Under the pieces are notes generated by a model that worked only from the letters and a program-made list of their open reading frames with translations, was not told the origin of the DNA and made no database searches. The translations under genes were made by a program, and so were the position numbers. This document shows positions 21,607 through 44,511 of a DNA stretch of 64,000 nucleotides, one piece after another (the stretch's first letter is position 1; every line of letters begins with the position of its first letter). This stretch comes from Prochlorococcus sp. AG-409-D14 (GTDB taxonomy: Bacteria > Cyanobacteriota > Cyanobacteriia > PCC-6307 > Cyanobiaceae), in assembly GCA_003215895.1 (NCBI GenBank), contig QCJR01000001.1:62001-126000 (forward strand). Direction: 5' to 3'.

Positions 21607-22969
21607 TTTTACGATAATAATCATGAGTATGATAGTAATTCAATGCAGCATCTAAAGGACCATCATATGCAATTGATCCATGACTAAAAACAACACCTCT
21701 ATTACAAAATTGTTTTAAAAGCTCCTCAGAATGACTTGCTAAAAATAAAGTTGCCGCAGATTCCATAAATTGCTTCATTCTCTCTTCAGCTCTATCACAA
21801 AAATCTGCATCACCAGTACCAAAACCTTCATCTATTGCTAAACAATCATGAGGACTTGAGGTAAGAATTGAAAAAATTAATCTTGCTGACATACCCTCAC
21901 TATAGGTTTTTATAGGTAAAGAAATGTATGAGCCTAAACCTGAAAACTCAATTATTTCCTCTAAAAAAGATTCAAAACCATCAAGACTATGGTTATTTAG
22001 TAAATAATGGGCCTTACAAGCATCGAGCCCAGATAGTTCTGAACTAGTCAGGAAAGTCTTTTGAAGCATTGGATAAACATCTACTAAGACATTAATATTT
22101 CCACTAGTAGGAATATATATGCCAGAAATTAACCGTAAAAAACTACTTTTACCAGAACCATTATGACCTATAAGGCCAACCCTCTCTCCCTTCATTATGG
22201 TTAAATTAATATTATTTAGAGCAATAATATTTGTTCTATTTTTTGATTGATCTAATGCCCCGCCCGTAATATTAGTTACTTTCTTGGCCAATCTCTTTGT
22301 TAGCGATCTATTTTCTGAATGATAAATAGGAATTGATAGAGATATATCAGTAATTTGAATTGCTGGCTTATTCAACATATTTATTGGAGAACCTGACAAT
22401 GAGCGAATCAGATCTGAAACCATATCTATAGATTGTTTTTCATTATCAACGTTACACAAAAACTGAGTCACTTTGATAAATGATTCGCCAGATATCCAAG
22501 GTGATATTGAATCAGGTTTATATAAATTAATTAAAGTAATACTCTGACTAATTTGTTTAGTAAAAAGTTCTGCAGCCAAAATTTTATTATTTAAGATATG
22601 AAGATCTTTTTTTTCTTGCGTAATATTAATTGAATAAGTTTTTTTCTTCGTAAAGACTAATTCACATATAATATCTGAAATTTGATAATCTTGATTATCT
22701 GCCATTTCAACCCAATAATTCAAAACATCAAAATCAGCTTTTCTATTAAATAAATTTAAATAAACCTTGTTAATCTTAAATTCAAGAGATTTATCTAAAG
22801 CACAAAACTTTGTATACTCATCTTGTCTGGATAATTCATTAGATATATCTTTAATAGTAAGTAATTCTTTAGAGCGTGAAAGCCAATAATTTATTCCTGA
22901 TGGATCACCAGGTCTTCCAAAATAAGCTATATATAATGTTTGTAACTTTTTAGCATCAACATTTATCAT
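21593..22969 (-). CDS. Polysaccharide ABC exporter ATPase (Wzt-like) with N-terminal DUF4214 module
   Basis: Protein of 458 residues with two parts. Residues 9-192 are a DUF4214 module: LYIAYFGRPGDPSGINYW (12-29), a second half LNLFNRKADFDVLNYW (71-86), then a helical segment ending SPWISGESF...RSLSG. Residues 203-445 are a Wzt/KpsT-type ATPase: Walker A GHNGSGKSS (268-276), signature YSEGMSARL (356-364), Walker B CLAIDEGFGTGD (376-387), switch His413. The chain ends soon after, so the C-terminal carbohydrate-binding domain of CBD-type Wzt proteins is absent. The DUF4214 module aligns end to end with the N-terminus of the giant secreted protein at 32765-38116. It sits 25 bases downstream of secA and overlaps the permease. 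Confidence 0.92.
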   Translation of the reverse strand: MINVDAKKLQTLYIAYFGRPGDPSGINYWLSRSKELLTIKDISNELSRQDEYTKFCALDKSLEFKINKVYLNLFNRKADFDVLNYWVEMADNQDYQISDIICELVFTKKKTYSINITQEKKDLHILNNKILAAELFTKQISQSITLINLYKPDSISPWISGESFIKVTQFLCNVDNEKQSIDMVSDLIRSLSGSPINMLNKPAIQITDISLSIPIYHSENRSLTKRLAKKVTNITGGALDQSKNRTNIIALNNINLTIMKGERVGLIGHNGSGKSSFLRLISGIYIPTSGNINVLVDVYPMLQKTFLTSSELSGLDACKAHYLLNNHSLDGFESFLEEIIEFSGLGSYISLPIKTYSEGMSARLIFSILTSSPHDCLAIDEGFGTGDADFCDRAEERMKQFMESAATLFLASHSEELLKQFCNRGVVFSHGSIAYDGPLDAALNYYHTHDYYRKNVIG

Positions 22970-25829: not shown

Positions 25830-26134
25830 TTATAATTTTTATAGCCTCACTAAGTATAGCTCAATCACCTCGAATTAACTGATCAAGGCGTGTTATTCTG
25901 GAAATTAGATATTTACATTTTAAAAATCCTTTAGGAAAATATTTAATTTAAAAATTATCTTATTTCACTGATTAAGCAATGTATTCTCAACTAAATATTA
26001 TATATAAACTTTAAGGTTTATCATATAAGTAATTATTAAACAATACTCTCAACGAAAAAGCATTGGCTTAAAAAATAATCAATTTGATATTCGATTCAGC
26101 AGTGAAGTACAATATCAAGATAGTTGTAATTACT

Positions 26135-27175
26135 ATGAGTAAAAATAAAATTGCTCTCATTACTGGGATTACTGGTCAAGATGGAAGTTATCTAGCAGAG
26201 TTACTTCTTGAAAAAGATTATATAGTCCATGGCATAGTTCGCAGATCAAGCAATGAGAATACCAACAGAATTGAACATTTACTTAAGAAAAACGAAAATC
26301 AAAGTCTCTTTTTACATTATGGAGATCTAACTCATAGTACAAATATTCTAAGAATAATTAAAGAAACATTACCTGATGAAATTTATAATTTAGGAGCACA
26401 GAGTCATGTCAAGGTTAGTTTTGACTCTCCTGAATATACAGCACAAACAGATGCACTCGGACCCTTAAGAATACTGGAAGCGGTAAGGATTTTAAATCTC
26501 ACAAAGAAAACAAAAATATATCAAGCCAGTACTTCAGAACTTTATGGACTTATACAAGAGTCTCCTCAATCAGAGCTAACTCCTTTTTACCCAAGAAGTC
26601 CATATGGAGTAGCAAAATTATATGCCTATTGGATCACGGTAAATTATCGAGAATCCTATGGAATGTATGCATGTAATGGAATACTTTTTAATCATGAATC
26701 TCCAAGAAGAGGTGAAACTTTTGTCACAAGAAAAATAACCAGGGGATTAACAAGAATTGCTGCTGGTGTACAAGACTGTTTGTATATGGGAAATATAAAC
26801 TCACTCAGAGATTGGGGGCACGCAAAGGATTACGTTGAGATGCAATGGAGAATGCTTCAGCAAGAAAAGCCTGAAGATTATGTGATTGCATCTGGACAAA
26901 TGACATCTGTTCGAAAATTCATCGAAATGTCTGCTAAAGAACTAAATTGGGGAGGAATTGCTTGGGAGGGAGAAGGTATTAATGAGATTGGGAAAAGAAA
27001 AGACAATGGAAAAATTGTTATAAGAATTAATCCTGAATTTTTTAGACCAGCTGAGGTTGAGTCTCTGCTAGGCAATGCTGAGAAAGCAAGAAAACAGCTA
27101 GGGTGGCAACCAACCACTTCAATTGAACAACTAGTCAAAGAAATGATAGAAAAAGATATGGAATTAGCGAAATAA
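26135..27175 (+). CDS. gmd: GDP-mannose 4,6-dehydratase
   Basis: Converts GDP-D-mannose to GDP-4-keto-6-deoxymannose, precursor of GDP-fucose, GDP-rhamnose or GDP-perosamine. The short-chain dehydrogenase fold has the NADP loop [15 protein letters not shown], the catalytic Ser/Thr-Glu (ASTSELYGL) and Tyr-x3-Lys ([12 protein letters not shown]), and the GMD-specific [18 protein letters not shown] use the ATG at 26135 ([11 protein letters not shown], 346 residues); the in-frame ATG at 26084 adds 17 residues without similarity to the family. About 250 bases of AT-rich DNA separate it from the divergent secA. No epimerase/reductase (Fcl) or perosamine synthase is in the window. Confidence 0.94.
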
Positions 27176-27619: not shown

Positions 27620-28369
27620 ATGGATTCACTTAAATGCCTTTCAGCTGAATGTGTGAATTTATTACACAAAAATAACCTTCTTCATTCTTTAGTAAAAGCA
27701 GAATTAAAAAGTTCAATATTATCAGAAATACAAGTTGATAAAGAGACTGAATCCAAAGCAATCCAACGTTTAAAAAATAAATTTAAAATAACTAATGAAA
27801 GCGAATTGGATCAATTTCTTATTCAGAATGGACTAGATAAGAAAGAGTTTATTAATTTAGCGGTGTTTCCATTTCGTGCTAAAAAATATTCCTCAGAAAA
27901 ATTTAATAACAAATCAAAAGCTAGATTTCTTGAACGAAAAAACCAACTAGATATAGTGATTTATAGCCTTTTGAGAACTTCTGATACTAATTTATGTAGA
28001 GAGCTATACCTCAAGATAAACGAAAAAGAAGTTGATTTTGGAGAAATTGCTTCACAATATTCAGAAGGTATTGAGAAAAAAACAAGAGGAATTGTAGGGC
28101 CAATCCCTCTTGAAAAAACGCATCCATTTTTAGCAGAGCACTTACGAACGAGTAAGATAGGAGAAGTTACTCAACCTTTTAAACTTGATAATTATTATTT
28201 AATCACAAGATTAGAATCCTATGATCCTGTACAACTGGATAGTTATATGAAAGATAAAATGTGTGAAGAACTTTTCGAATTATGGCTGAATCAAAAATCA
28301 ATAAGTATTTTGAATGAGCTAATTACTCCACTTAAGTCAAAAATTAAGTCTTCAGGAGAAATATCATGA
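27620..28369 (+). CDS. Parvulin-type peptidyl-prolyl isomerase of the type I secretion operon
   Basis: Protein of 249 residues. The N-terminal half (about 1-105) is helical and charged, like the chaperone part of PrsA/SurA proteins. The C-terminal half (about 108-203) is a parvulin rotamase domain: FGEIASQYSEGIEKKTRGIVG, then FLAEHLRTSKIGEVTQPF and YYLITRLES. There is no signal peptide, so it should act in the cytoplasm, perhaps holding the exported substrate before secretion. The ATG at 27620 is preferred over a TTG two codons upstream that lies in a T-run. Its stop overlaps the ABC transporter start by 4 bases. Confidence 0.83.
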   Translation: MDSLKCLSAECVNLLHKNNLLHSLVKAELKSSILSEIQVDKETESKAIQRLKNKFKITNESELDQFLIQNGLDKKEFINLAVFPFRAKKYSSEKFNNKSKARFLERKNQLDIVIYSLLRTSDTNLCRELYLKINEKEVDFGEIASQYSEGIEKKTRGIVGPIPLEKTHPFLAEHLRTSKIGEVTQPFKLDNYYLITRLESYDPVQLDSYMKDKMCEELFELWLNQKSISILNELITPLKSKIKSSGEIS

Positions 28370-31308
28370 CTAGCTCAAATTACAAATTAAACATAAGATC
28401 AATTCAATGTTTCAATAAAATAAGCAACTCAATATTAAATTCGATTGAAAAAGAGTCAAAGATAATTAAATACAAAATAGGAGATTCAATCACTCAAAGA
28501 GATATTATACCTAATAAGATTTTTTTAATATTATCTGGAGAAGTAAGGTTAACGACTAACACATCAACAAATACGAAAACTATAACTAAGCTCACGTCAG
28601 GATCATTTATAGGGTTAGCATCATTATTAAGAGCGAATCCATGTGAATCAACATCTGCCACGAATGATGTTTTAGTATTATCTTTACCAGATGACTTGAT
28701 ACTAAATATATTTGAAACTGATTTACACTTTAGAAATTGGTGCAACACAACTATTCAACCAATTGAAACCTATGAATTATTTAAAATTTTATTTGATAAA
28801 AACGAGCAAAAAAACTTTAACAGTATAAAAAATCAATTAAATAATTCACTATCTGTTGAAGTTGTTAATAATGGAGAAATCATAAAAACCAATAAAGACA
28901 CTTTAACAATAATTGGTAGTAGTAATTTAATGAATACAAATATAGGAGATATATCCTCTGGAAATCAAAAGGCGAATATACAAGGTCTTTTACCGGCAAG
29001 GATTTTCTCTATAAATAAAGATGCTTACAATAATTTATCTAGTCAAGAGAAAGAAGAACCAGAAAATAATTCATCTAAAGTATCGAATATTGAGATAGCT
29101 GATCAAAACATTGTCTTGAGTAATAGTTCTCTACCAATAGGTCAATATGAGCCCAAAAAAGAATTAAAGTTTATTAAAGCAAATGGCATAGTTAGAGAAT
29201 CATTAGCATGTTTACAAATGTTAGCGAACGAACTGGACTTGCCTTATAGATCAGATGCTATTGAGAAAATAATAAGAGATTTAATTAAAGATAATAAAAA
29301 GCCTTCGATTATGACTATGGGAAATATAACAACAACAATGGGTTTACATACATCAATAGCAAAAATACAACCTTCACTTGGTGGTAGGTTGCCATATCCC
29401 TCGATTATTTCATGGGGTAATTCTTTTGCATTAGTTAAAAAAAGTAATGCTGACTGTCTTGAAATCGCCTCTCCAAGTGAAGGTATTATAAAGATCAAAT
29501 TAGAAGACCTAAACAATAAATTTGAGAAAGGATTTATAGAGTTTTTAAATATAGAAAAATCGGATGCAACTCCTGAAATTAAGTTTGGATTTCAATGGCT
29601 ACTGCCTGCTATTAATCGCCATCGTAACGTACTCATTCAAGTTTTAATTGCATCATTTGTTGTTCAACTTTTTGGGCTCGCTAATCCACTCATGCTGCAA
29701 GTAATCATTGATAAAGTGATTAGTCAAAGGAGCCTAGATACTCTGCAAATTCTTGGAATAGCGCTAATTGTTATTACTCTTCTTGGTGGACTAATTAGCA
29801 GTCTTAGAACTTTTTTATTCAACGAAACTACCAATAGAATAGATACTAGACTAGGTGCAGAAGTCATTGATCATTTACTTCGTTTACCATTAAAATATTT
29901 TGATAATAGGCCCGTTGGAGAGTTAGGAACCAGAATTGCAGAATTAGAAAAAATAAGAAATTTTTTAACAGGTCAAGCACTTACCACGATTCTAGATGCT
30001 GCATTTTCACTTATTTATATAGTAGTCATGGTCTTCTATAGTTGGCTATTAACACTAATTGCTTTAGGTGTTGTCCCAATACAAATATTGATAACCATAG
30101 TTGGAACACCTCTACTAAGGAGACAAATACGCGAGATAGCTCAAGAAAACGCCTCAACTCAAAGTCATCTTGTTGAAGTACTTACAGGAATACAAACTGT
30201 TAAAGCTCAAAATGTAGAGAGAGTAAGCCGCTGGAAGTGGCAAGAATTATATAGTAAATACATTTCAAAATCATTTCAAAAAACAATTACTGGAACTGCA
30301 TTAGGTGAAACGAGTCAAGTTCTTCAAAAACTCTCTCAGCTTCTTGTCTTGTGGGTAGGTGCTTCTTTAGTATTAAAGGGTCAGCTTAGCTTGGGACAGT
30401 TAATAGCATTCAGAATAATTTCTGGGTATGTAACACAACCCCTTTTGAGATTAAGTTCTATTTGGCAAAACATTCAAGAATTGAGAGTTTCATTTGAAAG
30501 GTTGGCTGATATCGTAGACACTCCAGAAGAAACATCCGAGAAAGATAGAGCCAAAATACCACTTCCCAGTATTAAAGGAGATATAATTTTTGAGGATGTT
30601 TGTTTTAATTTCCGACGTACAGATCCATTCGTTCTTAGAGGAATTAATTTATCTATAAATCAAGGACAATTTGTTGGAATAGTTGGTCAAAGTGGTAGTG
30701 GAAAAAGTACTTTAGTTAAACTTATACCAAGGTTATACAATCCAAATTCAGGTCGAATATTTATCGATGGATACGATGTTGATAAAGTAGAGCTTTCCTC
30801 TCTTAGAAGACAAGTTGGGATAGTGCCTCAAGAGCCACTTTTATTTAAAGGGAGCATAAGCGAAAATATAGCTCTTACAGACCCAGAAGCTCCAAGTGAT
30901 CAAATAGTGAGAGCCGCAAAAATAGCAAATGCGCACGAATTCATAATGGAACTGAGTGATGGATACAGCACAATTATCGGAGAAAGAGGTGCTGGTCTTT
31001 CGGGAGGTCAAAAACAAAGAATAGCTATAGCAAGAACACTGCTGAATAATCCAAAATTATTAATAATGGACGAAGCAACAAGCGCTCTAGATTACTTAAC
31101 TGAAAGAAATGTCTGTGATGGCATTAAAGAATCATGCCTCAACTCCACTGTACTTTTTATTACTCATCGCTTAAGTACAGTAAGAAACGCAGATATAATA
31201 TTAATGCTCCATCAGGGTAAAATTGAAGAGTTAGGCACACATGAAGAATTAATGGCTAAAAAAGGTAGATATTATGCTTTATTCCTTCAGCAAGAGTCAT
31301 CTTCATAA
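28366..31308 (+). CDS. Type I secretion ABC transporter with N-terminal cNMP-binding-like and inactive C39 domains
   Basis: Inner-membrane exporter ATPase of 980 residues. Order: cyclic-nucleotide-binding-like domain (about 10-130; NKIFLILSGEVRL, GSFIGLASLLRAN), an acidic linker, a C39-peptidase-like domain (about 270-390) without catalytic Cys and His, six-helix ABC membrane domain (about 415-710) and nucleotide-binding domain (737-975) with Walker A GQSGSGKST (774-782), LSGGQ (879-883) and LLIMDEATSALD. As in HlyB, the dead C39 domain probably binds unfolded RTX substrate. Its likely cargo is the giant protein encoded just beyond the adaptor gene. Whether the N-terminal domain binds cAMP is unknown. 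Confidence 0.92.
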   Translation: MTSSNYKLNIRSIQCFNKISNSILNSIEKESKIIKYKIGDSITQRDIIPNKIFLILSGEVRLTTNTSTNTKTITKLTSGSFIGLASLLRANPCESTSATNDVLVLSLPDDLILNIFETDLHFRNWCNTTIQPIETYELFKILFDKNEQKNFNSIKNQLNNSLSVEVVNNGEIIKTNKDTLTIIGSSNLMNTNIGDISSGNQKANIQGLLPARIFSINKDAYNNLSSQEKEEPENNSSKVSNIEIADQNIVLSNSSLPIGQYEPKKELKFIKANGIVRESLACLQMLANELDLPYRSDAIEKIIRDLIKDNKKPSIMTMGNITTTMGLHTSIAKIQPSLGGRLPYPSIISWGNSFALVKKSNADCLEIASPSEGIIKIKLEDLNNKFEKGFIEFLNIEKSDATPEIKFGFQWLLPAINRHRNVLIQVLIASFVVQLFGLANPLMLQVIIDKVISQRSLDTLQILGIALIVITLLGGLISSLRTFLFNETTNRIDTRLGAEVIDHLLRLPLKYFDNRPVGELGTRIAELEKIRNFLTGQALTTILDAAFSLIYIVVMVFYSWLLTLIALGVVPIQILITIVGTPLLRRQIREIAQENASTQSHLVEVLTGIQTVKAQNVERVSRWKWQELYSKYISKSFQKTITGTALGETSQVLQKLSQLLVLWVGASLVLKGQLSLGQLIAFRIISGYVTQPLLRLSSIWQNIQELRVSFERLADIVDTPEETSEKDRAKIPLPSIKGDIIFEDVCFNFRRTDPFVLRGINLSINQGQFVGIVGQSGSGKSTLVKLIPRLYNPNSGRIFIDGYDVDKVELSSLRRQVGIVPQEPLLFKGSISENIALTDPEAPSDQIVRAAKIANAHEFIMELSDGYSTIIGERGAGLSGGQKQRIAIARTLLNNPKLLIMDEATSALDYLTERNVCDGIKESCLNSTVLFITHRLSTVRNADIILMLHQGKIEELGTHEELMAKKGRYYALFLQQESSS

Positions 31309-31313
31309 GTATC

Positions 31314-32483
31314 ATGAAAAGAAATATACACTCAACTATTAAAAACTTAAGTAAGGGCTCGCTGAAGAAGTTTCAGAAGATTATCTTGAATAAAAAAGAG
31401 ATTATCACCCAAATTAATCAAAGAAAAAACCAACTTTTACAACTGAACAAGAAAATTGATCTCAATACAATCAGTAATAAATTTGAAGAAATTTTAAAAG
31501 AAAAACTATTTTTAAAAAGCCTACAACCTTCAATATGGGTGCAATTTGCCCAAGATAAAGTCAATAATATCTTCGAAGGTGAAAATAATCTAGTTTTTCT
31601 TCGTCAATCTCGGTTCTGGTTTAATGCAATTTCATGGACATTAATAGGTACTGCAGGATTCGGTATAGCATGGATTTCTATTGCAAAAACAGAGGAAATT
31701 GTAATAGCTACAGGAAAACTGGAACCAAAAGGTGGTGTAATTGAAGTTCAAATGCCTTTGGAGGGTGTGACTAGGAAGGTGCTTATAAAAGAAGGAGATA
31801 TCGTCGAGAAAGGAGAAATATTAATACAATTGGATACTGATATTACTGATGCAAAAAATATTGCACTTCAAAATAATTTAGAACTGAACGAGAACATCGC
31901 AAGCAAATTAAAAGTTTTAGCAAAAGAAGGTGCAGTATCAGAATTACAATACCTCCAGCAATTAGCAAAGATAGAAGATATCAAAAGTGAAATCAAAACT
32001 AATGACGTCAGATTAAAATATCAAGAGATAAAAGCACCCTCAAAAGGGAAAATATTTGACCTACAGCCCAAAGGCCCTGGATTTGTAGCAAGAAGTTCAG
32101 AACCAGTTCTAAAAATTGTACCTATGAGTAATTTAATAGCAAAGATCGAAATACAAAGCAGAAATATTGGCTTCGTAAGTGTCAATCAAAAAGCTGACAT
32201 TAGTATAGATTCATTCCCTGCGAGTGATTTTGGAGTAGTAAAAGGGAGTCTTATCAGTATTGCATCCGATGCCTTACCACCAGACCCATCAATGGGAAAG
32301 AATTACAGGTTTCCAGCTAAAATAAAATTAGATACTCAATACCTAAAACTAAAATCAGGGAAGAAACTACCCTTACAAGCAGGCATGAGTCTTAGCGCAA
32401 ATATAAAGCTTAGGAAGGTAACTTATTTACAATTGCTTCTGAATAAATTTACTGATAGAGCAGAATCATTAAAAGCAATTTGA
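31314..32483 (+). CDS. Type I secretion membrane-fusion protein (HlyD family)
   Basis: Periplasmic adaptor of 389 residues linking the ABC exporter to an outer-membrane TolC-like channel. It has an unusually long cytoplasmic N-terminus (about 1-100, basic and helical), one membrane segment (about 104-124), lipoyl half-motifs (about 140-175 and 236-268; IEVQMPLEGVTRKVLIKEGD, YQEIKAPSKGKIFDL) and a beta-barrel domain. The hairpin between the lipoyl halves is only about 55 residues, much shorter than in HlyD. It begins 5 bases after the ABC gene. No TolC homologue lies in the window. Confidence 0.9.
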   Translation: MKRNIHSTIKNLSKGSLKKFQKIILNKKEIITQINQRKNQLLQLNKKIDLNTISNKFEEILKEKLFLKSLQPSIWVQFAQDKVNNIFEGENNLVFLRQSRFWFNAISWTLIGTAGFGIAWISIAKTEEIVIATGKLEPKGGVIEVQMPLEGVTRKVLIKEGDIVEKGEILIQLDTDITDAKNIALQNNLELNENIASKLKVLAKEGAVSELQYLQQLAKIEDIKSEIKTNDVRLKYQEIKAPSKGKIFDLQPKGPGFVARSSEPVLKIVPMSNLIAKIEIQSRNIGFVSVNQKADISIDSFPASDFGVVKGSLISIASDALPPDPSMGKNYRFPAKIKLDTQYLKLKSGKKLPLQAGMSLSANIKLRKVTYLQLLLNKFTDRAESLKAI

Positions 32484-32764: not shown

Positions 32765-35700
32765 TTATGCGAAGTCTGAGAAGCTTGCACTAGTGAAGTC
32801 TTCGGACTCAGCAGCAGTAAAGTGAGCAATAAGTGTAACGTTAGCGGCATCAATAGTTGTGTCAGTACCACCAGTAACTTGAGCAAGTGTCGTGTTACCT
32901 GCAGCCCCTTCAACTAGTACGTATGCAACGTCTGCTGCTGATCCAACGGTAACTGTGTGGTTATCAGTACCATTACCAGAACCATCTAGGTCACCTAAGA
33001 AGGTAGCAATTTCTGCAGCAGTTAGATAACTTCCTGCGTCAATAGCCGTTGTTGATGATCCGGCGAATACTGTCAATCCATCGATTATGGCATGGTCGTC
33101 TGTGTTAGCGAATAACAAGAAGCCATCTACATCCAAGTCGGTGTTTGCAGCATCGTTTACGTCTCTTGTTCCAGTGAAGTCAATAATGTCAGTTCCAGCA
33201 GTGAAACTACCAATAGTGTCTATACCTTCTCCACCGTAAGCAAGGGCAAATGTATCTGTACCACCACCAAAGGTAAGAGTGTCATTACCTCCTCCAGCAG
33301 TAACAGTACCACCACCTGCTCCAGTAGTAATTGTATCTGCTTCACTACCTGTAGTAATAGTGTCAGCTCCAGATCCACCTGTAATTGTCCAGATGATATC
33401 ACCGTCGGCGATTGTACTTGCAGCTGTTGCAGCAGCATTAACGTCAATTTGCCAGTCAAGAGTGGTAACAAGATTATCAGCGTTGCCGTTAATAATCATT
33501 CGACTATTTGTAGTGTCGTAGATCACCTGACCAATAGATCCAGAAAGATTGGCCTGAACTTCTGAGGTGCCTGCACGAGCTGTTTGAACAGTACAGTCAT
33601 ATGTTGCAGCGCCAGTATCTGTGGAGTTATTAATCGTGACATTGAACTTATCAGTACCTGATGTGAAGTCAGTAATTGAGTCACGAGCAGATCCTGTTGA
33701 TTGACCAACAGCTGTGTAAGTGAAAGTATCAGCTCCCGCACCACCAGTAATAGTGTCTCCACCAAGACCACCATCTATGACGTCAGCTCCAGCTCCAGCT
33801 GAAATCGTATCACCTGTAGCTGTTGTAGCTGTACCAGTAACAGTATCAACTCCACCACCACCTGAGTAAGTAATGGTGCCATCATTTTCTGCACTTGCAT
33901 CAAGTGTGAAAGCATCACCAGTATTAGCTTCAGCATTAATTGTCAATACTCCACTAACAGTGTTGTTATCACTCAAAGTAAGACTACCAACATGGTTACC
34001 ACCGGTTTTAATGGTTTCTATTTTGGTTACTCCAGACATGTCTGAAGCTGAAACAGTATCTATAGAAGTTTCATCGTCAAAGGTAATTGTCAAGATATCT
34101 GAGCCAGTACCACCAGTTAAGGTATCTCCAGATGTGAGATTGTCTTCAGCGATAGTGAAGGTTATAGCAGCACCTGAAGCTTCGGCAGTAACTGTGTCAT
34201 TACCTGATGAAAGAGCAATGGTTGCTGCTGAAGTTACACCAGCTCCCAAAGTTATGCTGTCAGCTCCAGTACCATCGTTAATAGTAGCTATAGAAGATTC
34301 TTCAAATTCGCTACCGAGAACTAAAGTTGTTGCTGTATTTGAAAAAGTAAGTACATCAAAGTTAGTTACGCCTGTGAAATCCGCGTCAGATAGAGTACCG
34401 CCATCGCTCAAGGTGATTGTATCGGTTCCAGATACACCGTTGATTGTGTCTGCTGAAGTTAACTGAGCAACTGCAATCGTAACGCCGTCAGTACCGCTTC
34501 CTCCTGTAATGGTATCTCCCATTGAGGAAGCAGAAGCTGTGATCGTATTACCACCATGACCACCAAGGATGGTTACTGCGCCGTTGGTTTCGGCGGACAT
34601 TGTAATGGTAGAAACAGTAGTAGCATTTATTGTTGCATCGATAGTTAACGACTTAGTAGCTGCTACGACTGCATCAACAATAGTTACTGAGTTTGCAGCA
34701 TCTCCATCAACAAACTTGATTGTTTCAAAACCAGTTACATTATTTAGTGCTGTAGCAGCAGTAGCAGATGAATCGTAATCAATTTCTAATACGTCACTGG
34801 TTCCAGTACCTGCAGTAATTGTGTCACCACTGGTTAGGTCATTGGAGTCAACATTGACTGTTAATGCAGCAGTCATGGATGACGCATCAATGGTATCTGT
34901 ACCAGCAAGAAGATTCACCTTCTGTGCTGTGGTAACTGAATCAAGATTCAGATCATTAGTAACAGAAGCTGCAAGATTAATTGTTGAGAAACCAGCAGCG
35001 GTGTACTCAGCACCAAGATCGGTATCAGAAGAAGCTATAGAGGTGAAAGTTAGCGTCTCCATGTTGGAAACATTCGTGAAATCAGCATCTGCAAGTGTTG
35101 CAGCTGTGGTGATGATCGAAAGAATGTCTGTACCAGCTCCACCATCGATGGTGTCTAAAGTAGTTAATTGAGCTGCTACGACGCTGACTGTATCTGCACC
35201 TGCATAAGTATTAATAGTATCTCCAAGATCACTAAGACTAGCGGTGATAGCGTCTCCACCTGTAGCTCCATGAACTGTGATTATTCCATCTGCCTCAGTA
35301 CCTGCAGAGAAGGTTAAACCGTTTGCAGCACTTACTATTGCGCGACCATCAACTAATAGTGTTTTTCCATCTGCAACGGTTCCGTTGTCGATAGTTATGT
35401 TCGCAGCTGCGTCGTTAGTAATAGTGAACTTCTCTATCGCAGTAACACTTGCTAACTGAGCTGCAGTGTAGGTGTCACCAACAAGTTTAAGTTCGTCAGC
35501 TGTACCTGTACCACCGGTCAATGTTGAAGTAACGCCTGTATCAGCGTTAATCGCAGTATCAACACCAGCAACAAGGGTTAAAACACCGGTATAGGTAGAT
35601 GCATCGATCGTGTTTGTATCAGCAGCAACAGCAGCATCAAGGTTAACGGTTATTGCGTTTGTGACATCGTTTTGAATTGTGACTGTGTCAGCAACACCAC

Positions 35701-38116
35701 CATTAGCTGTACCAGCAAGAGTAACGGTTGTTATACCCATTGCTTGCGCATAGGTATCTAAGGTTGCAGATAAACCAGTTGCATCAGATGTAATTACTTC
35801 AATCGATGTGTTGTTCTCGAGTTGAGAGTCGGCTACAGCTGATAAATCATCAAGTTTAAGAGTATCAGTACCATCTCCACCATCTAAAACGTGGAATGAA
35901 GCAAGGTTTGTATCAGTTCCATAGAAAGTGTCATTTCCTGCTCCACCACTAATGGTGTCTTTAACAGTAGTTAATGCAGCAGCTGTAAGCGTGAAGGTAT
36001 CGTTACCAGCTCCACCATTAATAGTGTCTGACGCAGCACCACCAGTAATTGCATCGTCACCAGCTCCACCAGTAAGTGTTGAAGCGTGAGAGTCACCAAG
36101 AATTGTATCGTTACCAGAACCACCGGTAATGGTTGTTGCTCCAGCAGTAGCAGCATCCATGACTAGATTTCCAGTCAAACCAGAAGCATCAATTGTTCCT
36201 GTACCGGAGCCATCAGTACCAACTGTAATTACACCGCTTGCATGGAAATTACCTTTACCGGAAATATTTAGTGTTGCTGCAGTTCTGAGACCATCCGAGT
36301 CTGGATCTCCAGTTACGTTAAAAGTAGAGACATCCTGCTCAGTGGTTGTAGTACCTGTACCTGTACTGAAGTTAACTGTCTCGAAGCCATTAACAGCTAC
36401 AGAGTTGTTATTAAAAGAATCAACCGTAGAGGAGTTAATAGTAAGAGTGTCAGTAGTTGCTAAACCAGTATCAGTAACTGTTAGAGCACCAGCACTTGCT
36501 GTACCCATTTTCAGAGTATTACTACCAGCACCGAAAACAACTGTTCCAGCATTTGCTCCAGCCGTAAGTGTGACTGAACTAATTGTTGAATCAATATTTG
36601 CTGTAGTAAGCGATGTTGCTAATACAGTGGATGCTTCAATAACTTCAATGTTAGAGACGTTATTAGCTGTTGTAAGTCCTGCAAGTTCACCATCATCACC
36701 TACCAAAGTATCTGTTCCAGCTCCACCATTAACGATGTCTGCATCAGCTAAGTCAGCACCGAAGATAAGTCTGTCGTCACCTGAGCCACCAGAAAGTGTA
36801 TCGATTGAAGATGCAGCTCCTTCTGATGTAAGTGCGTCATTACCTGAACCACCAGTAATAGTTACAGCACCAGCAGTGCCAGCCAACGTATTATCTGAAG
36901 CTAGTGTTATTGCTCCAGTAGCAGAACCAGCGTTAATAGTAGTGGTCTGATTGAGAATTGTTGAAGCAACACCAAGAGTCAAATCTGCACTACCAGAAAT
37001 ATTCAATGTAGTTGCATCACTATCCAACCTTACAGAGTTAGCTGAAGTTGAAGAGGTTAAATTAACTGTTTCAACAGCACCAGTAATAGTTGTAATTACT
37101 GTATTACCACCAGTTGCATTGGCTAGCTCTAAATCAATACTGTCAGCAGTACCGGTAAGAGCAGCAGCTTTATATGTGAAAGTTGCGCCTTGATCATTAT
37201 CCGCAACCTTAAGGTCTGCAGTTGCATCACCGATATTTGAGATAGTTCCAAGAGCTATAGAACCGGAGTTAGTGTACTTAGTAACACCAGTAATATTTAC
37301 TGCACTAACTGTCTTAGCGGCTTCAAAAGTAAGGTTTATATTCTCAACATTCTTGATAGAAAGTGGAATTACAGTTGTTGCTATTGACGCATTAAGAGTG
37401 TCAGTTCCACCTTTACCATCAATTTCATCAAGAGAATTAAGTGTGTTTGCACCAGATGAAGTCAGGCCAGCACTTATCTTATTAGTACCTGCAGTTCCAG
37501 CAATATCATCTACGTTTGAAGTGAGTGAGTAGTTGGCTGATTCAGAAGGAACTCCATTACCAGTAATAGTAGTAACACTTGCAGCGATACCAGCGGCAGT
37601 ACTAGCTGTATCTTTATTAATACCGGACATATAAGAAACAGCTTCAGCAATATTTACACCAGACTTCCAAGGACTTGTTGACTCAGCTTGATAAGCAAGA
37701 ATTGCTGAAGCGTCTTCTTTTACTTTCGCTGTGTAAGCTATTGCAGCGTCTGTTTTATTACTAAGAGCAGTTTTGTCATCTTCGCTACCTGCATTGTTCT
37801 TAGCCGCCCAGATTAGATGAGTCGCGATTTCAGCGAGCTGAAGATTACCTAAATCAATTTCTTGGGTCCAATAAAGCAAACCAGTTGCATCAGCAGCTCT
37901 ATCGAAAAGATTTTCATAGATCTGATTGACTTGGGATTCAGTTGAAAGACTGCCGTAAACATCTTTAAATTCAGCCTGCGCATACATGTCTGCGGCGAAC
38001 TTAGATGTAGTTATCCCTTTCTTCGTCCAGTAATCAAGACCTGCGGGATCAGCGGCGCGCCCAAAATAAGCAACGTAGAGCTCTTGAAGTTGTGTGCTAG
38101 TCGCGTTATCAGCCAT
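32765..38116 (-). CDS. Giant RTX/S-layer-like secreted protein with N-terminal DUF4214
   Basis: Protein of 1783 residues without a signal peptide. Residues 10-186 hold DUF4214 (LYVAYFGRAADPAGLDYW at 13-30; second half ENLFDRAADATGLLYW at 68-83) and a helical segment. The rest is Ala/Thr/Gly/Ser/Asp-rich beta structure with many Ca2+-binding RTX-type turns (GGSGNDTILG 665, GGAGNDTFTL 701, GGAGADTF 1458), a 230-280-residue repeat and a C-terminus (SEDFTSASFSDFA) fitting an uncleaved type I secretion signal. Only one cysteine (1508). The layout and motifs recall Caulobacter RsaA, suggesting an S-layer or giant adhesin exported by the convergent T1SS. G+C is about 45%, far above its neighbours, driven by amino-acid content. 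Confidence 0.87.
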   Translation of the reverse strand: MADNATSTQLQELYVAYFGRAADPAGLDYWTKKGITTSKFAADMYAQAEFKDVYGSLSTESQVNQIYENLFDRAADATGLLYWTQEIDLGNLQLAEIATHLIWAAKNNAGSEDDKTALSNKTDAAIAYTAKVKEDASAILAYQAESTSPWKSGVNIAEAVSYMSGINKDTASTAAGIAASVTTITGNGVPSESANYSLTSNVDDIAGTAGTNKISAGLTSSGANTLNSLDEIDGKGGTDTLNASIATTVIPLSIKNVENINLTFEAAKTVSAVNITGVTKYTNSGSIALGTISNIGDATADLKVADNDQGATFTYKAAALTGTADSIDLELANATGGNTVITTITGAVETVNLTSSTSANSVRLDSDATTLNISGSADLTLGVASTILNQTTTINAGSATGAITLASDNTLAGTAGAVTITGGSGNDALTSEGAASSIDTLSGGSGDDRLIFGADLADADIVNGGAGTDTLVGDDGELAGLTTANNVSNIEVIEASTVLATSLTTANIDSTISSVTLTAGANAGTVVFGAGSNTLKMGTASAGALTVTDTGLATTDTLTINSSTVDSFNNNSVAVNGFETVNFSTGTGTTTTEQDVSTFNVTGDPDSDGLRTAATLNISGKGNFHASGVITVGTDGSGTGTIDASGLTGNLVMDAATAGATTITGGSGNDTILGDSHASTLTGGAGDDAITGGAASDTINGGAGNDTFTLTAAALTTVKDTISGGAGNDTFYGTDTNLASFHVLDGGDGTDTLKLDDLSAVADSQLENNTSIEVITSDATGLSATLDTYAQAMGITTVTLAGTANGGVADTVTIQNDVTNAITVNLDAAVAADTNTIDASTYTGVLTLVAGVDTAINADTGVTSTLTGGTGTADELKLVGDTYTAAQLASVTAIEKFTITNDAAANITIDNGTVADGKTLLVDGRAIVSAANGLTFSAGTEADGIITVHGATGGDAITASLSDLGDTINTYAGADTVSVVAAQLTTLDTIDGGAGTDILSIITTAATLADADFTNVSNMETLTFTSIASSDTDLGAEYTAAGFSTINLAASVTNDLNLDSVTTAQKVNLLAGTDTIDASSMTAALTVNVDSNDLTSGDTITAGTGTSDVLEIDYDSSATAATALNNVTGFETIKFVDGDAANSVTIVDAVVAATKSLTIDATINATTVSTITMSAETNGAVTILGGHGGNTITASASSMGDTITGGSGTDGVTIAVAQLTSADTINGVSGTDTITLSDGGTLSDADFTGVTNFDVLTFSNTATTLVLGSEFEESSIATINDGTGADSITLGAGVTSAATIALSSGNDTVTAEASGAAITFTIAEDNLTSGDTLTGGTGSDILTITFDDETSIDTVSASDMSGVTKIETIKTGGNHVGSLTLSDNNTVSGVLTINAEANTGDAFTLDASAENDGTITYSGGGGVDTVTGTATTATGDTISAGAGADVIDGGLGGDTITGGAGADTFTYTAVGQSTGSARDSITDFTSGTDKFNVTINNSTDTGAATYDCTVQTARAGTSEVQANLSGSIGQVIYDTTNSRMIINGNADNLVTTLDWQIDVNAAATAASTIADGDIIWTITGGSGADTITTGSEADTITTGAGGGTVTAGGGNDTLTFGGGTDTFALAYGGEGIDTIGSFTAGTDIIDFTGTRDVNDAANTDLDVDGFLLFANTDDHAIIDGLTVFAGSSTTAIDAGSYLTAAEIATFLGDLDGSGNGTDNHTVTVGSAADVAYVLVEGAAGNTTLAQVTGGTDTTIDAANVTLIAHFTAAESEDFTSASFSDFA
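33853..37429 (-). repeat. Five long degenerate protein repeats in the giant protein
   Basis: A recurring block starts with an RTX-like D-x-I-x-G-G-x-G-T-D-T-L turn, is followed about 15-30 residues later by an (N/G)-V/T-x-N-(I/M/F)-E-x-(I/L)-T-F strand, then beta segments. Turn positions: 230, 459, 742, 987 and 1222, i.e. spacings of about 229, 283, 245 and 235 residues. The last two units are closest to each other (TSGDTITAGTG at 1095 and TSGDTLTGGTG at 1328; GGDAITAS at 953 and GGNTITAS at 1188). DNA identity between units is low, so this is old duplication. Confidence 0.75.
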
Positions 38117-38679: not shown

Positions 38680-39654
38680 TTGGCCAACAAAAGATCTCTA
38701 ATACTTGGCTGCAGTGGACAAGATGGTGCCCTCCTAAGCCTTTCGCTTCTAAAACAGAACTATGACGTTATTGGCACATCAAGGAAACTAAAAACAAATA
38801 AATTACAGAAAATAACTAATCATTCGATTCTGGGCATTGATAAAGACATTAGATTAGTAAATTGTGATATTACAAATTCCGATGAGATTTCTAATTTAAT
38901 TGAGAAATATAAACCAAATGAAATTTACAATTTAGCAGCACAGTCGTCAGTCGGTAAATCCTACGAATATCCTCAAGAAACCATAAAAAGTATTGTTGAC
39001 GTTACTATTAACCTGCTAGAAGTATGCAGAGAGATAAACTATAATGGAAACTTATTTTTTGCTGGAAGCAGCGAAGTTTTTGGAAACACCAAAAGAAAAG
39101 CAAATATAAACAAAAAACAAAGGCCGGTAAGCCCTTATGGAATTGCGAAACAAACCAGTTTTAACTTGGTTAAATTATACAGAAATTTGCACAATCTAAA
39201 ATGCGTTACAGGAGTATTGTTTAACCATGAATCACCACTAAGAAGCGAAAAATTTGTAACTCAAAAGATAATTACCGAAGCTTTGTTATGTAGAAAAAAT
39301 AAATCACATAAATTAAGAATAGGCAACATAAATATTGCGAGAGACTGGGGCTGGGCAGAAGAATTTGTAGAGGGGTTTCAAGTAATGAACAGAACTAAAA
39401 ATTTAAAAGATCAGATAATATGTACTGGAAAATCAACAAAATTAAAAACATTTATTAAAATAGTGTTTAAAAAACTGAATCTTAATTGGAGAAATCATAT
39501 TTTTGTAGATTCAGAATTTTTCCGAAAAGATGAAATAAAGCAAAGCTATGGAGATCCCAAACAAATGAAAAATGATTTAGATTGGAAGGCAAAAGTTGAA
39601 TTAGAAACGATAATTGAAAGACTCATTGAATTTAAATTAAATTCTCAAAAGTAG
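38680..39654 (+). CDS. GDP-mannose 4,6-dehydratase-like sugar-nucleotide enzyme (divergent paralog)
   Basis: NAD(P)-dependent short-chain dehydrogenase of 324 residues. It has the nucleotide loop GCSGQDGALLSLSLL, catalytic Ser-Ser-Glu (AGSSEVFGN), Tyr-x3-Lys (SPYGIAKQTSF) and the GMD signature in altered form (FNHESPLRSEKFVTQKI). It is shorter and clearly diverged from the gmd at 26135, so it may act on the same substrate or have become a reductase/epimerase for the product. Start is TTG at 38680 (an ATG is not available nearby). The end overlaps the convergent glycosyltransferase gene by 23 bases. Very AT-rich. Confidence 0.83.
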   Translation: MANKRSLILGCSGQDGALLSLSLLKQNYDVIGTSRKLKTNKLQKITNHSILGIDKDIRLVNCDITNSDEISNLIEKYKPNEIYNLAAQSSVGKSYEYPQETIKSIVDVTINLLEVCREINYNGNLFFAGSSEVFGNTKRKANINKKQRPVSPYGIAKQTSFNLVKLYRNLHNLKCVTGVLFNHESPLRSEKFVTQKIITEALLCRKNKSHKLRIGNINIARDWGWAEEFVEGFQVMNRTKNLKDQIICTGKSTKLKTFIKIVFKKLNLNWRNHIFVDSEFFRKDEIKQSYGDPKQMKNDLDWKAKVELETIIERLIEFKLNSQK

Positions 39655-42600
39655 AATTTAACTCTAAGCTTTTTAAAGTATTGATAAGGTATTGTCGTAA
39701 ATGAGTAAATCTTCTTTTGCTTAGAAGTTTCTTTCTATTCACATAATCACTTTTAAATAGTTTAGGTTTTTCTGATTTGAACCAATTATAAATTCCATCT
39801 GAAATATCCTGTGGAGTTGAACCAGGAAGGTATTCAACTAAATCAGAGACATCATTAAATATATTTAGAGGAGTTACTAATACAGGTCGCAATGCAGCGA
39901 GCCCTTGCCTGACAGAAGCACTTGAAGATTCATTTGATTGCTGATAGGGGAAAACAATACAATCAAATGTACTAAGTTTATTTATTGTATTTTCGTCAGA
40001 CATATAATCACCAACTACTGAAACTAAATTATTTAAGTTTAAATCTTTTATTAATTCCTGTAATTCCTCAAAGAAATATTCATATTGCTGATTATAGATT
40101 GCAGAGAAAATTGTTAAGCTAATTTTAAAATTATTTTCTCTAAGTAAACTTATCGCGTGTATTAATTCTTTATAGCCTTTATTTGGAAGGCAAAAACCAT
40201 AAGATGCTATTCTTCTGTGACCACCAAAATTAATTTTTTTAAGAATAGATTTTTTCAAATTATCCTTTGGCAATAAATCAGTTATACCGTGACAAAGTAA
40301 ATTTGAATTGTGTATTATACCTAAATCTTTTAATCGATTAAGATCATCTATGGAATGTACAAATATTCTATTACATTTCAACAAACTATTTCTAAGATTA
40401 TAAAGTCTTTTTGTGGTATCATTTTTTGGATCAATTGTTGAATGAAGCAGTATAACGACATTAATATTTTTTTCATGAAGATAATCAATCAACTCAGACA
40501 AACATTTAAAGCTAAATAAACCATAATTAAATTGAATAAACAATGTTGTTATCTCTTCAGTAATAATAAGTTTATAAAGATTTTCAAAATTTTGATTCTT
40601 ATTATCTAGATGCCAAGCTGATATTATTTTGTGTGAATTTGTATAGATATTTTCTTCTTCATACGGAGAAAAAATAACCAGATCATCGCTAATATCAGAA
40701 AACATATTTTTAGAATAAGATGCTATTCCACATTTTGAATTCCAAGTCGTGAGAATACCTAATTTAAAATATTTAGGTTTATATTTTATGCACTCTTTTT
40801 GAACAAAGTTAATATTATTCTCTGCTACAGAATCCCACTTAAATAAATCAGTATCTTTTTTGGCCCTATCTGTTCTTTGAGAAAGAATTTTTTTATCTGA
40901 AGAATAAATTTGATACAGTAATTGTGAAAGATGTTTCTGTGAAGGTTCTGCCCAGTAGGATTGATAGATTTCAAAGTGAGACTTAGAAAAAGCGAATTTA
41001 TAATCAATCAACCAAGAATTTTCTTTTGTACAAAAATCTAGTTGTCCTCCCCAACCTGTTGTAATAACCGGGACACCTAATCTCATTGCTTCGCCAATAG
41101 GAAAACCAAAACCTTCACCTCTGCTAGGAGCAACTAAAACATCAGATTGTATTATTAAACCTTTAATCTGCTCATCTGTCATATCTTTATTTAAAACAAT
41201 GATATCAGGTATATGAGAATTATTACTCCTCATTTGATCTATTTTTTTTTCAATATGATTATGTGGATTATTAAAAGTTTTAATAATAAGAGTTACTTCA
41301 TCTTGATCAGTAAAAGTCTCACAAAACGAATTTAATAAAATATCTACACCTTTTCTGGGAAAACAGGAGGAAATATGTATTACTTTAAATTTTTTTGATT
41401 TTAATTCAAAATTAAAATCCGATTTAATTCCGTCTATATGATCCAAACCAAGACTAGAAACTTTAATGGGAATATTGACGCCACTATCGATAAGAATTTT
41501 TTTTACTTGGGCTGACATTACAGTAATTCCTTGCAAATAAGTATTAAAATCATTAACCCATTCGCAAGGAAATTTGGACTCTTCCCACCCGTAAGAGTGA
41601 AGTATATTTATTCTTGAATCTAAATCTTTGACTCTTGGTGGATAAAGATTTCGACTTGAGATATCAATTTCTTTGGATTTATTTTTTGACTTTAAATATA
41701 TAGAATGAATTAAAGGAAAATTACGTAAATAATCTATATCTATTTGATAGTCACCATATCCCTCAGTGATTGATATGAAAAGATTTAATAACTTTGTATG
41801 TAAAGCTTCTACAAAGTGCCTGTTAAGCTTGGCAAGGCTATAACTTGAATCAAAAGGCCCTTCTACTATCCAAGATCCTGGGGTGTCGGTATTTAAGAGA
41901 CCCCTATTCAGAAAATCAATTTGTTTATTAATACGATCAATAGATGACGCAATCAATAGCCATATTTGATCATTCGAATTATTATTTGAAAAATTTATTT
42001 TTGAAATTTGTAAAAATAAATTTTCTAGATTATTCTTATTTTGTGAGATGATATCTTGATATGAAAAATCAGGAGCTTTTTGTTCATCAACTTCTACTAT
42101 TTTCTCGCAGGCAAGCTTTGCAGCTCTAGCAGTCCTACTCCATGAAAATTTTTCACTTTGCTGTTTAGAGTTAACTACTAATTCCTCTCTAAACTGCACA
42201 TTAGTTAAAACCTTCTGAATAAGTTGCTTAATATCTTCTGAATCATTTGGATCAAACATAGCCTCCAATTTACCTATTACTTCTGGAATACTTGTTGTGT
42301 GGGATCCGATTACAGGAGCCCCGCATGACATTGCCTCTAATACAGGAAGTCCGAAGCCCTCATGAAGAGAAGGAAATATAAACAGATAACAATTTCTATA
42401 TAAAACTACTAAATCATCATCTGGAATGTAGCCAGTTTGTATTACATTTTTAACATCAATTCCATATGATTTCATCCAATTATCAATTAACTCTTGTTCT
42501 GGTTTTATTAACTTGCCAGCAAGTACAAGTTTAAAATGATTTAATTCCTGAGGTAATAAGCTATATGCCTCAAGTAAACTTTGAAGATTCTTTCTAGAGT

Positions 42601-43294
42601 CTCCAGCGCCTGCATATAAGAGAAAAGGTTCTTCTAATATAGTTTTAATTGCATCTGAATTAATAATTTTTCTAGTAGTATTGAAAATATCTTTATCACA
42701 GGCTGAGGAAATATTAAATACAAAATTTCTGTTAAATTTTAAATATTCTTGGGCTTCATGTGCAGAAGATTCTGAAATTGCTAGCAGACCATCAACTTGT
42801 TCTAATTTTTTTAATTTAGATGCATAAAATCTCTGAAATTCTAAATTACCATGAAAATAAAGATTAGGATTTAAGAAAGGTATTAAATCATAGAAAACTG
42901 ATAAGATTTTAAAATTAACTTGATCAAAATCAAACTCAGTCAAACAATTATCTGAAAATCCCTCAACGAAACTAGTTATAATTACGATGTCAAGATATAA
43001 ACAAGAACAAGCATATGATTTAATATAACGTCCTAAATTGATTAAAGTATCATTACTAGAAATATAATCAAAAGGACATGGAGAGCTCCATTCAAAATAA
43101 CTAACATTATCTAATCTCAATTCAGATTTAAATTGCAATTCTAGATTCTTTAAACATCCATTAGCTATTAAAACAAATTCATGATTTGGAGAAATTTTAA
43201 TTAGATTACGAACTATCTCCAGAGAATATCGACCAATGCCTCGTGTTCTACTACCTTCACTTTGCAATCCTTGAAGATCAATTCCGATTCTCAT
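39632..43294 (-). CDS. Three-module GT4-type glycosyltransferase (WbdA-like)
   Basis: Cytoplasmic polysaccharide-building enzyme of 1220 residues made of three GT-B modules. Module 1 (about 1-400): GIGRYSLEI, LLYAGAGDSRKNLQ, and E-x7-E in HEGFGLPVLEAMSCG (E312, E320). Module 2 (about 475-835): HISSCFPRKGVDILL and E-x7-E in RGEGFGFPIGEAMRLG (E727, E735). Module 3 (about 842-1215): IASYGFCLPNKGYKELI, but the motif is NESSSASVRQGLA with the second Glu replaced by Gln1130. Multi-module GT4 enzymes such as WbdA polymerise O-antigens by alternating linkages. It starts 2 bases after the methyltransferase gene upstream, the same order as wbdD-wbdA. Confidence 0.9.
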   Translation of the reverse strand: MRIGIDLQGLQSEGSRTRGIGRYSLEIVRNLIKISPNHEFVLIANGCLKNLELQFKSELRLDNVSYFEWSSPCPFDYISSNDTLINLGRYIKSYACSCLYLDIVIITSFVEGFSDNCLTEFDFDQVNFKILSVFYDLIPFLNPNLYFHGNLEFQRFYASKLKKLEQVDGLLAISESSAHEAQEYLKFNRNFVFNISSACDKDIFNTTRKIINSDAIKTILEEPFLLYAGAGDSRKNLQSLLEAYSLLPQELNHFKLVLAGKLIKPEQELIDNWMKSYGIDVKNVIQTGYIPDDDLVVLYRNCYLFIFPSLHEGFGLPVLEAMSCGAPVIGSHTTSIPEVIGKLEAMFDPNDSEDIKQLIQKVLTNVQFREELVVNSKQQSEKFSWSRTARAAKLACEKIVEVDEQKAPDFSYQDIISQNKNNLENLFLQISKINFSNNNSNDQIWLLIASSIDRINKQIDFLNRGLLNTDTPGSWIVEGPFDSSYSLAKLNRHFVEALHTKLLNLFISITEGYGDYQIDIDYLRNFPLIHSIYLKSKNKSKEIDISSRNLYPPRVKDLDSRINILHSYGWEESKFPCEWVNDFNTYLQGITVMSAQVKKILIDSGVNIPIKVSSLGLDHIDGIKSDFNFELKSKKFKVIHISSCFPRKGVDILLNSFCETFTDQDEVTLIIKTFNNPHNHIEKKIDQMRSNNSHIPDIIVLNKDMTDEQIKGLIIQSDVLVAPSRGEGFGFPIGEAMRLGVPVITTGWGGQLDFCTKENSWLIDYKFAFSKSHFEIYQSYWAEPSQKHLSQLLYQIYSSDKKILSQRTDRAKKDTDLFKWDSVAENNINFVQKECIKYKPKYFKLGILTTWNSKCGIASYSKNMFSDISDDLVIFSPYEEENIYTNSHKIISAWHLDNKNQNFENLYKLIITEEITTLFIQFNYGLFSFKCLSELIDYLHEKNINVVILLHSTIDPKNDTTKRLYNLRNSLLKCNRIFVHSIDDLNRLKDLGIIHNSNLLCHGITDLLPKDNLKKSILKKINFGGHRRIASYGFCLPNKGYKELIHAISLLRENNFKISLTIFSAIYNQQYEYFFEELQELIKDLNLNNLVSVVGDYMSDENTINKLSTFDCIVFPYQQSNESSSASVRQGLAALRPVLVTPLNIFNDVSDLVEYLPGSTPQDISDGIYNWFKSEKPKLFKSDYVNRKKLLSKRRFTHLRQYLINTLKSLELNSTFENLI

Positions 43295-43296
43295 TA

Positions 43297-44511
43297 TTAT
43301 TTCCTGAAAATACGTTTTATAAGAGTATTTCGGATTTCCATAGCACTTCTAGAATTATTATAGTGTGTTATAAGTTTCTGATTAAAATGAACTGAGTTAA
43401 TATCTATTTGATTAACTTTATTTATTGCTTCATACACTTTTTCATAACTAACATCTAATAAATTAAAAGGAAATAGATTAAGAATAAATCTTATTAATAA
43501 TAAAGTATACTTGTAGTTTAAGATAGAGCGCATTATACGATAATTCAGCATAAAACTAACTATAGAAGTAGAAATAAAAATCATAATCTTTTTGAAATAA
43601 CTCAAAATCTTAGTTATGGGAGATAAAAGTTTATTTATTATTAATTGATTGGTTTCTAATATCCGTATTTTTTCCTTAGATAAAATTAATTCTTGATTTA
43701 TCAAATTTATAAGTTTACTTTGATCATCAATTAGTTTGCTTTGTTTTGTCAAGGAACTCTCCAATTCGAAATCAAAATTTGTGGCAGCATCAAGGGTAGT
43801 AGGTGCTTGCGATAAATCACTTTCCCAATCAAGATTTATATTAAATATACAATCTGCAATCTCTTGGCTTTTGCAAGCAATAATTGATAAGTCCTGAGCT
43901 ACACCATTCAATACTCTTGTCAATTTAAGTGAAGAAGCTTCTTGTAGCGGTCCACCATTTATAAAATAGTAATTAGCTTTAATAAATCCAGCACACTCAA
44001 TATCAAAAATTATTCTGTCAGGATTTATATGATTAATATGGGTTGAATCAATATAAAATAATTTAGAAGAAACTAATAAATTATCTATACTTGGGGTTTC
44101 CATTATGAATATACCGTCATCCTTTAAAACCCTATGGCATTGTTCTAACAATAAAGTCAGTTTTTTGCTTTCAATATGCTCTATCATATGAAATATTGTA
44201 ATTAAAGATATTGAACTACTTTCTAGTGAGTACAATATTTCTAATGCTTCACCTTTTAAAATATTTAATCCCAAGCTTTCACACAAATTGATCATATTTT
44301 TATCTTGCTCAATACCAATTGAATTAGGAATTCTTTTATTCCATCTTTGTAAAAACTCTCCTCTTCCACAACCTATATCTAAAAGACTTATTTTTTTATT
44401 ATTTCTGATATATAAATCTATCAATGAATCATAAATTGATAGTTTATTAATTATATTGTCACGATTTCCTCTAAATTTATTCTCAAACTCCAAATAAAAA
44501 TCTGACTTCAT
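43297..44511 (-). CDS. SAM methyltransferase with coiled-coil tail (WbdD-like)
   Basis: Protein of 404 residues. Residues 1-215 are a class I methyltransferase: leader ENKFRGNRDNIINKL, motif I LLDIGCGRGEFLQRW (43-57), acidic E68 after strand 2, motif near ITIFHMIEHIE (105-114) and ETPSIDNLL. Residues 250-300 form a heptad-like coiled coil (KQSKLIDDQSKLINLINQEL), followed by a hydrophobic stretch (about 300-350) that may sit on the membrane. This layout recalls WbdD, which caps O-antigen chains by methylation and sets length through its coiled coil; no kinase domain is visible. First gene of a two-gene minus-strand unit with the three-module transferase. Confidence 0.85.
   Translation of the reverse strand: MKSDFYLEFENKFRGNRDNIINKLSIYDSLIDLYIRNNKKISLLDIGCGRGEFLQRWNKRIPNSIGIEQDKNMINLCESLGLNILKGEALEILYSLESSSISLITIFHMIEHIESKKLTLLLEQCHRVLKDDGIFIMETPSIDNLLVSSKLFYIDSTHINHINPDRIIFDIECAGFIKANYYFINGGPLQEASSLKLTRVLNGVAQDLSIIACKSQEIADCIFNINLDWESDLSQAPTTLDAATNFDFELESSLTKQSKLIDDQSKLINLINQELILSKEKIRILETNQLIINKLLSPITKILSYFKKIMIFISTSIVSFMLNYRIMRSILNYKYTLLLIRFILNLFPFNLLDVSYEKVYEAINKVNQIDINSVHFNQKLITHYNNSRSAMEIRNTLIKRIFRK

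Follow-up and report, generated by a model that had tools for sequence, protein, structure and literature searches.

The closest described counterparts of the locus considered here are the O-antigen systems of Escherichia coli O8 and Klebsiella pneumoniae O5, in which a three-module polymerase, WbdA, is encoded 2 bases behind a methyltransferase-only WbdD; the E. coli O9/O9a pair shares with our locus the logic of a polymerase and a terminator, as well as the first GT4 module. In published systems with terminated O-chains, a carbohydrate-binding module (CBM) fused to the C-terminus of the export ATPase Wzt reads the chain end (PMC11231755), and transporters that lack the Wzt CBM fail to export (PMC9445017). 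Here we describe a wbdD-wbdA pair and its presumed exporter in a 64,000-nucleotide stretch of Prochlorococcus sp. AG-409-D14 (assembly GCA_003215895.1, contig QCJR01000001.1, positions 62,001 to 126,000), which we call the window. Judged by its sequence, the pair clearly belongs, as a new member, to the O8-type polymerase-terminator family, in a host where it was not expected, and the predicted exporter, with an N-terminal DUF4214-type domain instead of a CBM, is a new variant. An O8-type polymerase and terminator would thereby occur without a cap-reading domain across a whole genus of abundant ocean phototrophs.

The glycosyltransferase and methyltransferase pair

For comparison we used the O8 cluster from E. 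coli IAI1 (NC_011741) and the O9 cluster from E. coli HS (NC_009800). In the window the methyltransferase gene lies directly upstream of the glycosyltransferase gene, both on the minus strand and 2 bases apart, and the O8 cluster matches this order and spacing, with a 2-base gap between genes for a methyltransferase of 425 amino acids (aa) and a glycosyltransferase of 1213 aa. The coordinates, gap and wbdD-wbdA order given in a preliminary description of this DNA are thus correct. The features of the pair are as follows.

43297..44511, minus strand: predicted O8-type WbdD-like chain-terminating methyltransferase, 404 aa (O8 WbdD match, no kinase)
43867..44511, minus strand: S-adenosylmethionine (SAM)-dependent methyltransferase domain, residues 1-215, motif LDIGCGRGE (Pfam, AlphaFold2, conserved columns)
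43546..43797, minus strand: long single helix, residues 239-322, a probable short coiled coil that leads into a hydrophobic stretch (AlphaFold2, heptad test, hydropathy)
43303..43539, minus strand: C-terminal helices, residues 325-403, presumed contact region for membrane and WbdA (AlphaFold2, tail conserved in the genus)
39632..43294, minus strand: O8-type WbdA-like three-module GT4 polymerase, 1220 aa (O8 WbdA alignment)
42095..43294, minus strand: glycosyltransferase module 1, residues 1-400, EX7E = E312/E320 (Pfam, O8 alignment)
40805..41887, minus strand: glycosyltransferase module 2, residues 470-830, EX7E = E727/E735 (Pfam, O8 alignment)
39656..40777, minus strand: glycosyltransferase module 3, residues 840-1213, E1122 without a second glutamate, as in O8 (Pfam, O8 alignment)

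Pfam marks three Glycos_transf_1 stretches in the 1220-aa glycosyltransferase. Its alignment with E. coli O8 WbdA is colinear along the whole length, at 36% identity in 1201 aa and a score of 734 bits, and modules 1, 2 and 3 are 39%, 41% and 32% identical, respectively. In modules 1 and 2 the two proteins have the same EX7E glutamates, the R-K pairs match, and the third module holds a lone glutamate without its partner in either enzyme. All three GT4 modules are therefore kept, which bears out the earlier suggestion of a glycosyltransferase with three GT-B modules like that of O8. The O9 enzyme of strain HS, in contrast, has two modules (840 aa) and is 29% identical over 806 aa. In one genus genome (G010:C7:67657-71284, L134) WbdA is broken by stop codons into two open reading frames (ORFs) of ~760 and ~445 aa, a state that looks as if the chain had been switched off there. 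In the window, the 3' end of wbdA overlaps that of a convergent GMD-like gene by 23 bases (39632-39654).

In Pfam searches the 404-aa methyltransferase shows a class I methyltransferase domain (residues ~36-165) but no kinase domain, and it is 33% identical to E. coli O8 WbdD over 256 aa. A bifunctional WbdD of the O9/O9a type was considered and ruled out: the O9 protein of strain HS (708 aa) carries a kinase domain that is absent here, and the match is just 24% over 88 aa around the SAM motif. The closest solved structure is 3dli, an archaeal methyltransferase without a stated function. An AlphaFold2 model built with 12 genus sequences has the catalytic domain, then one unbroken helix (residues 239-322) and then C-terminal helices. 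The hydrophobic tail noted in the preliminary description is borne out by hydropathy maxima at residues 302-355 and by the helical fold of residues 325-403, and its proposal of a coiled coil after the catalytic domain fares less evenly. It agrees with the long modelled helix and with heptad patterns that are clear in O8 WbdD (p 0.002 versus shuffles) and in the 12 genus homologues, most of which lie clearly above shuffles (combined z 7.3, from relatives that are not independent), but the signal in the window protein by itself is not significant (p 0.17 versus shuffles). Between two fixed alignment columns, the coil region spans 53 to 93 residues across Prochlorococcus strains (for example, L106:8660-9991), and if this coil acts as a ruler, chain length would be expected to differ from strain to strain.

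The sequences, the order and spacing of the genes, the catalytic residues and the make-up of the tail agree with O8 throughout, and we consider it very probable that the two genes encode an O8-type polymerase-terminator pair, in identity as in role; the likeness to the O8/O9a pair proposed earlier thus stands for O8 and falls for O9/O9a. Alternatively, the methyltransferase might modify internal sugars of a chain polymerised by the 1220-aa glycosyltransferase. The site of methylation cannot be told from sequence alone, the window protein has a short coil with a weak heptad signal, and the genus has no CBM to read a cap. However, the closest characterised relative is the O8 terminator, and terminators share the helical coil, the hydrophobic tail and the place in the operon, so that we regard internal methylation as quite improbable.

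The exporter and its N-terminal domain

The exporter genes and the surface protein that shares a domain with Wzt are arranged as follows.

20827..21624, minus strand: Wzm, polysaccharide export ATP-binding cassette (ABC) permease (Pfam ABC2_membrane; NCBIfam galactan permease below cut-off)
21593..22969, minus strand: Wzt, export ATPase without a C-terminal CBM (Pfam, NCBIfam, genus profile search)
22400..22969, minus strand: DUF4214-type N-terminal domain of Wzt, residues 1-190 (homology to the RTX N-terminus, alignment, AlphaFold2)
32765..38116, minus strand: giant RTX-type surface protein, 1783 aa, with its N-terminal domain at 37547-38116 (Pfam HemolysinCabind, DUF4214)

Both exporter claims of the preliminary description, a Wzm/Wzt in the window and a Wzt without the cap-reading domain, are confirmed. 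In E. coli O8 the Wzt has a C-terminal CBM and its gene lies directly upstream of the pair, whereas here wzt is ~17 kb away and its product ends after the nucleotide-binding domain. Neither wbdB nor wbdC, the genes that come after wbdA in E. coli, adjoins it in this locus. The absence extends through the genus, as the Wzt_C/CBM family PF14524 was found in 0 of 41 genus genomes under a search that matched its positive controls, and this search thus gave no sign of a second, CBM-bearing Wzt in the genus. No relatives of Wzt were found in viral contigs.

In place of the CBM, every Wzt of the genus carries an N-terminal extension of ~190 aa. This extension and the N-terminal part of the giant RTX protein are homologous, with 30% identity over 178 aa between the two window proteins (E 4e-24) and up to 41% in other strains. 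When isolated, both N-domains exceed the PF13946 gathering score of 23.2 (Pfam; Wzt 28.0 bits, RTX 57.3 bits). AlphaFold2 models the Wzt domain with a pLDDT of 88.7 when RTX N-domains, and not genus Wzt sequences, are supplied as extra rows. DUF4214 has been described as a likely surface-anchoring domain (PMC12780176), and a Halomonas DUF4214 protein was aligned by SWISS-MODEL to the Caulobacter S-layer protein (PMC11970703). The N-terminal helical domain of that S-layer protein, RsaA of Caulobacter crescentus, which is likewise of RTX type, binds the O-antigen of lipopolysaccharide (LPS) and offers a parallel to what we propose (PMC6978808).

As a cytoplasmic and an external protein that share a domain both meet the polysaccharide, chain binding is the simplest common role, and we propose, somewhat short of even odds, that the DUF4214-type domain is a chain-binding module in exporter and surface protein alike. 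The full reading, in which this domain takes over from the CBM by which other Wzt proteins read the cap, and one and the same chain is recognised by exporter and surface layer, we put at roughly 0.4. By analogy with the biochemistry of O8/O9a, from which polymerisation, termination, ruler and recruitment are all inferred, the three-module WbdA would use a lipid carrier on the inner side of the membrane to assemble a homopolymer, either of mannose or of 6-deoxy-D-mannose (D-rhamnose), while the tail of WbdD would bind WbdA and the membrane, its short coil would set a minimum chain length and its methylation of the chain end would stop growth. The chain would then leave through the Wzm/Wzt of the same island, with the DUF4214-type N-domain most likely engaging it in place of the CBM, and the giant RTX protein encoded beside wbdA would most likely hold the same polysaccharide outside the cell via the same domain. 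Because gmd is present, the D-rhamnose chain of Aquifex aeolicus, whose WzmWzt exports an O antigen capped with 3-O-methyl-D-rhamnose (PMC9445017), is a likely model for the type of polymer, although the Aquifex Wzt reads the cap by a C-terminal domain that is absent here. If the domain does bind the chain, this would explain the hold on giant surface proteins and give DUF4214 a function, and it would place one recognition module on both sides of the envelope, at a cell surface under heavy phage pressure.

Distribution and the evidence for chain recognition

WbdA is present in 31 of 41 searched genomes of the genus Prochlorococcus, and the WbdD-like methyltransferase is likewise conserved. Among 201 family genomes of 40 genera, O8-type WbdA is restricted to this genus (15 carriers), with none in the sampled genomes of the other 39 genera, and the carriers of WbdA and of the N-domain-bearing Wzt are the same 15 genomes. 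In another 34 of the 201, the nucleotide-binding domain of Wzt is the same (44-57% identity), but both the N-domain and WbdA are missing. Outside the family, O8-type WbdA is scattered among Proteobacteria, Campylobacterota and others, where it typically lies just behind a Wzm/Wzt with an O8-type CBM and often together with gmd and an RMD-like gene.

Beyond the genus, the domain profile finds DUF4214-type domains among the ORFs around WbdA in 7 of 59 loci, for the most part in large surface-type proteins that carry the domain N-terminally. Genome-wide, the domain occurs in 9 of 50 non-genus WbdA genomes, and 5 of its 14 copies fall inside the WbdA locus where 0.13 would be expected (one genome with 18 copies left out); the resulting p of ~3e-7 is a guide only, because the grouping had been noticed before the counting. 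Two loci, L125 (1-16666) and L139 (1809-17924), combine a type I secretion system (T1SS), Wzm/Wzt, WbdA and a DUF4214 surface protein in a single cluster. At the place of WbdD, both loci encode an extra protein of 510-557 aa that starts with a ...HxLFRSGSTYL motif and in L125 has no Pfam match.

The pair may also be of the O8 type while export proceeds without any reading of the chain, as with the CBM-less galactan Wzm/Wzt of K. pneumoniae O1/O2, the N-domain of Wzt then serving dimerisation, membrane placement or partner contact. This is a serious, if still tentative, explanation. The best NCBIfam matches of both Wzm and Wzt are galactan exporter models, albeit below cut-off, and the strain-to-strain variation of Wzm and Wzt tracks that of the core genome (r 0.84-0.93 with SecA and cysE) and not that of WbdA. 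Two points stand against export of this kind: none of the 34 relatives that have a plain Wzt but lack WbdA carries the N-domain, and the same domain occurs on surface proteins of the same locus.

Several further observations, to which the weak heptad signal of the window protein may be added, weigh against one part or another of the overall explanation, in which an O8-type pair makes and ends a chain that the DUF4214-type domain would bind. One complete genus genome, G026 (G026:C1, L089-L091), has a full-length WbdA and a DUF4214-bearing Wzt and no homologue of WbdD anywhere at E<=1e-5. Termination is therefore not universal, and the chain of this strain may end differently or be uncapped. The same genome speaks for export without chain reading and hints that the DUF4214 domain does not read the methyl end. 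Once shared ancestry is allowed for, the N-domains of Wzt and RTX proteins show no co-variation between strains (partial r -0.04), which again suits export without chain reading; a strain-specific shared ligand is therefore not supported, though all strains may have one ligand in common. The co-occurrence of WbdA and the extended Wzt in the family lies within one genus and may reflect a single evolutionary event, and Wzt retains its CBM in the 4 checked non-genus loci that have DUF4214 beside WbdA. Finally, although its proposed role resembles that of the RsaA N-domain, the Wzt/RTX N-domain gave no significant sequence or fold match to RsaA in several comparisons: comparison of the Wzt/RTX domain with RsaA_NTD (residues 1-249; query letters identical to 6t72/5n8p) gave hhalign probabilities of 0.2-0.3%, RsaA was not among the fold matches listed by Foldseek or VIA-align, and a profile search of the PDB likewise gave no support. 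Its best fold matches are phycobilisome linker domains at Z 5.5, which the tool rates as a common arrangement. RsaA_NTD and DUF4214 are separate families in Pfam, and a search of plasmids for RsaA_NTD relatives that could deepen the profile found none.

The surrounding locus

Between the exporter and the pair, the window encodes the following further features.

26084..27175, plus strand: GDP-mannose 4,6-dehydratase Gmd (TIGR01472 above cut-off)
28366..31308, plus strand: type I secretion ABC exporter, HlyB-like (domain matches)
31314..32483, plus strand: HlyD-family adaptor (domain matches)
38680..39654, plus strand: second GMD/RMD-family enzyme, convergent on wbdA (Pfam GDP_Man_Dehyd; TIGR01472 below cut-off)

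These genes belong to a fixed genus locus with the order Wzm-Wzt-SecA / gmd-PPIase-T1SS-HlyD-RTX-GMDlike-WbdA-WbdD (PPIase, peptidyl-prolyl isomerase), which holds one or two giant RTX proteins. The methyltransferase gene lies directly upstream of wbdA in 16 of 18 mapped genus genomes, the exceptions being G026, where it is absent, and G060, where the contig ends.

The surroundings also bear on where the glycan ends up. Substrates of a T1SS pass both membranes in one step, and this leaves no periplasmic stop for glycan transfer, which argues against a glycan that decorates the giant surface protein instead of forming an LPS O-chain; the same kind of pair, moreover, serves LPS in the E. coli O8 and O9 clusters. 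We therefore regard it as unlikely that the locus is an S-layer glycosylation island, even though the T1SS and giant RTX genes lie together in the locus in all genus genomes whose map spans it and the T1SS, RTX and GMD-like genes vary together between strains. S-layer glycans can, in addition, be served by Wzm-type exporters (PMC4594306).

Many genus genomes, though not the window, also encode between gmd and the secretion genes a metalloprotease of ~390 aa with a HEIGH zinc motif and two DUF4214 stretches (for example, L092:8562-9740, L098:7996-9144 and L085:7888-9063), which, as a guess, might be a surface-layer protease.

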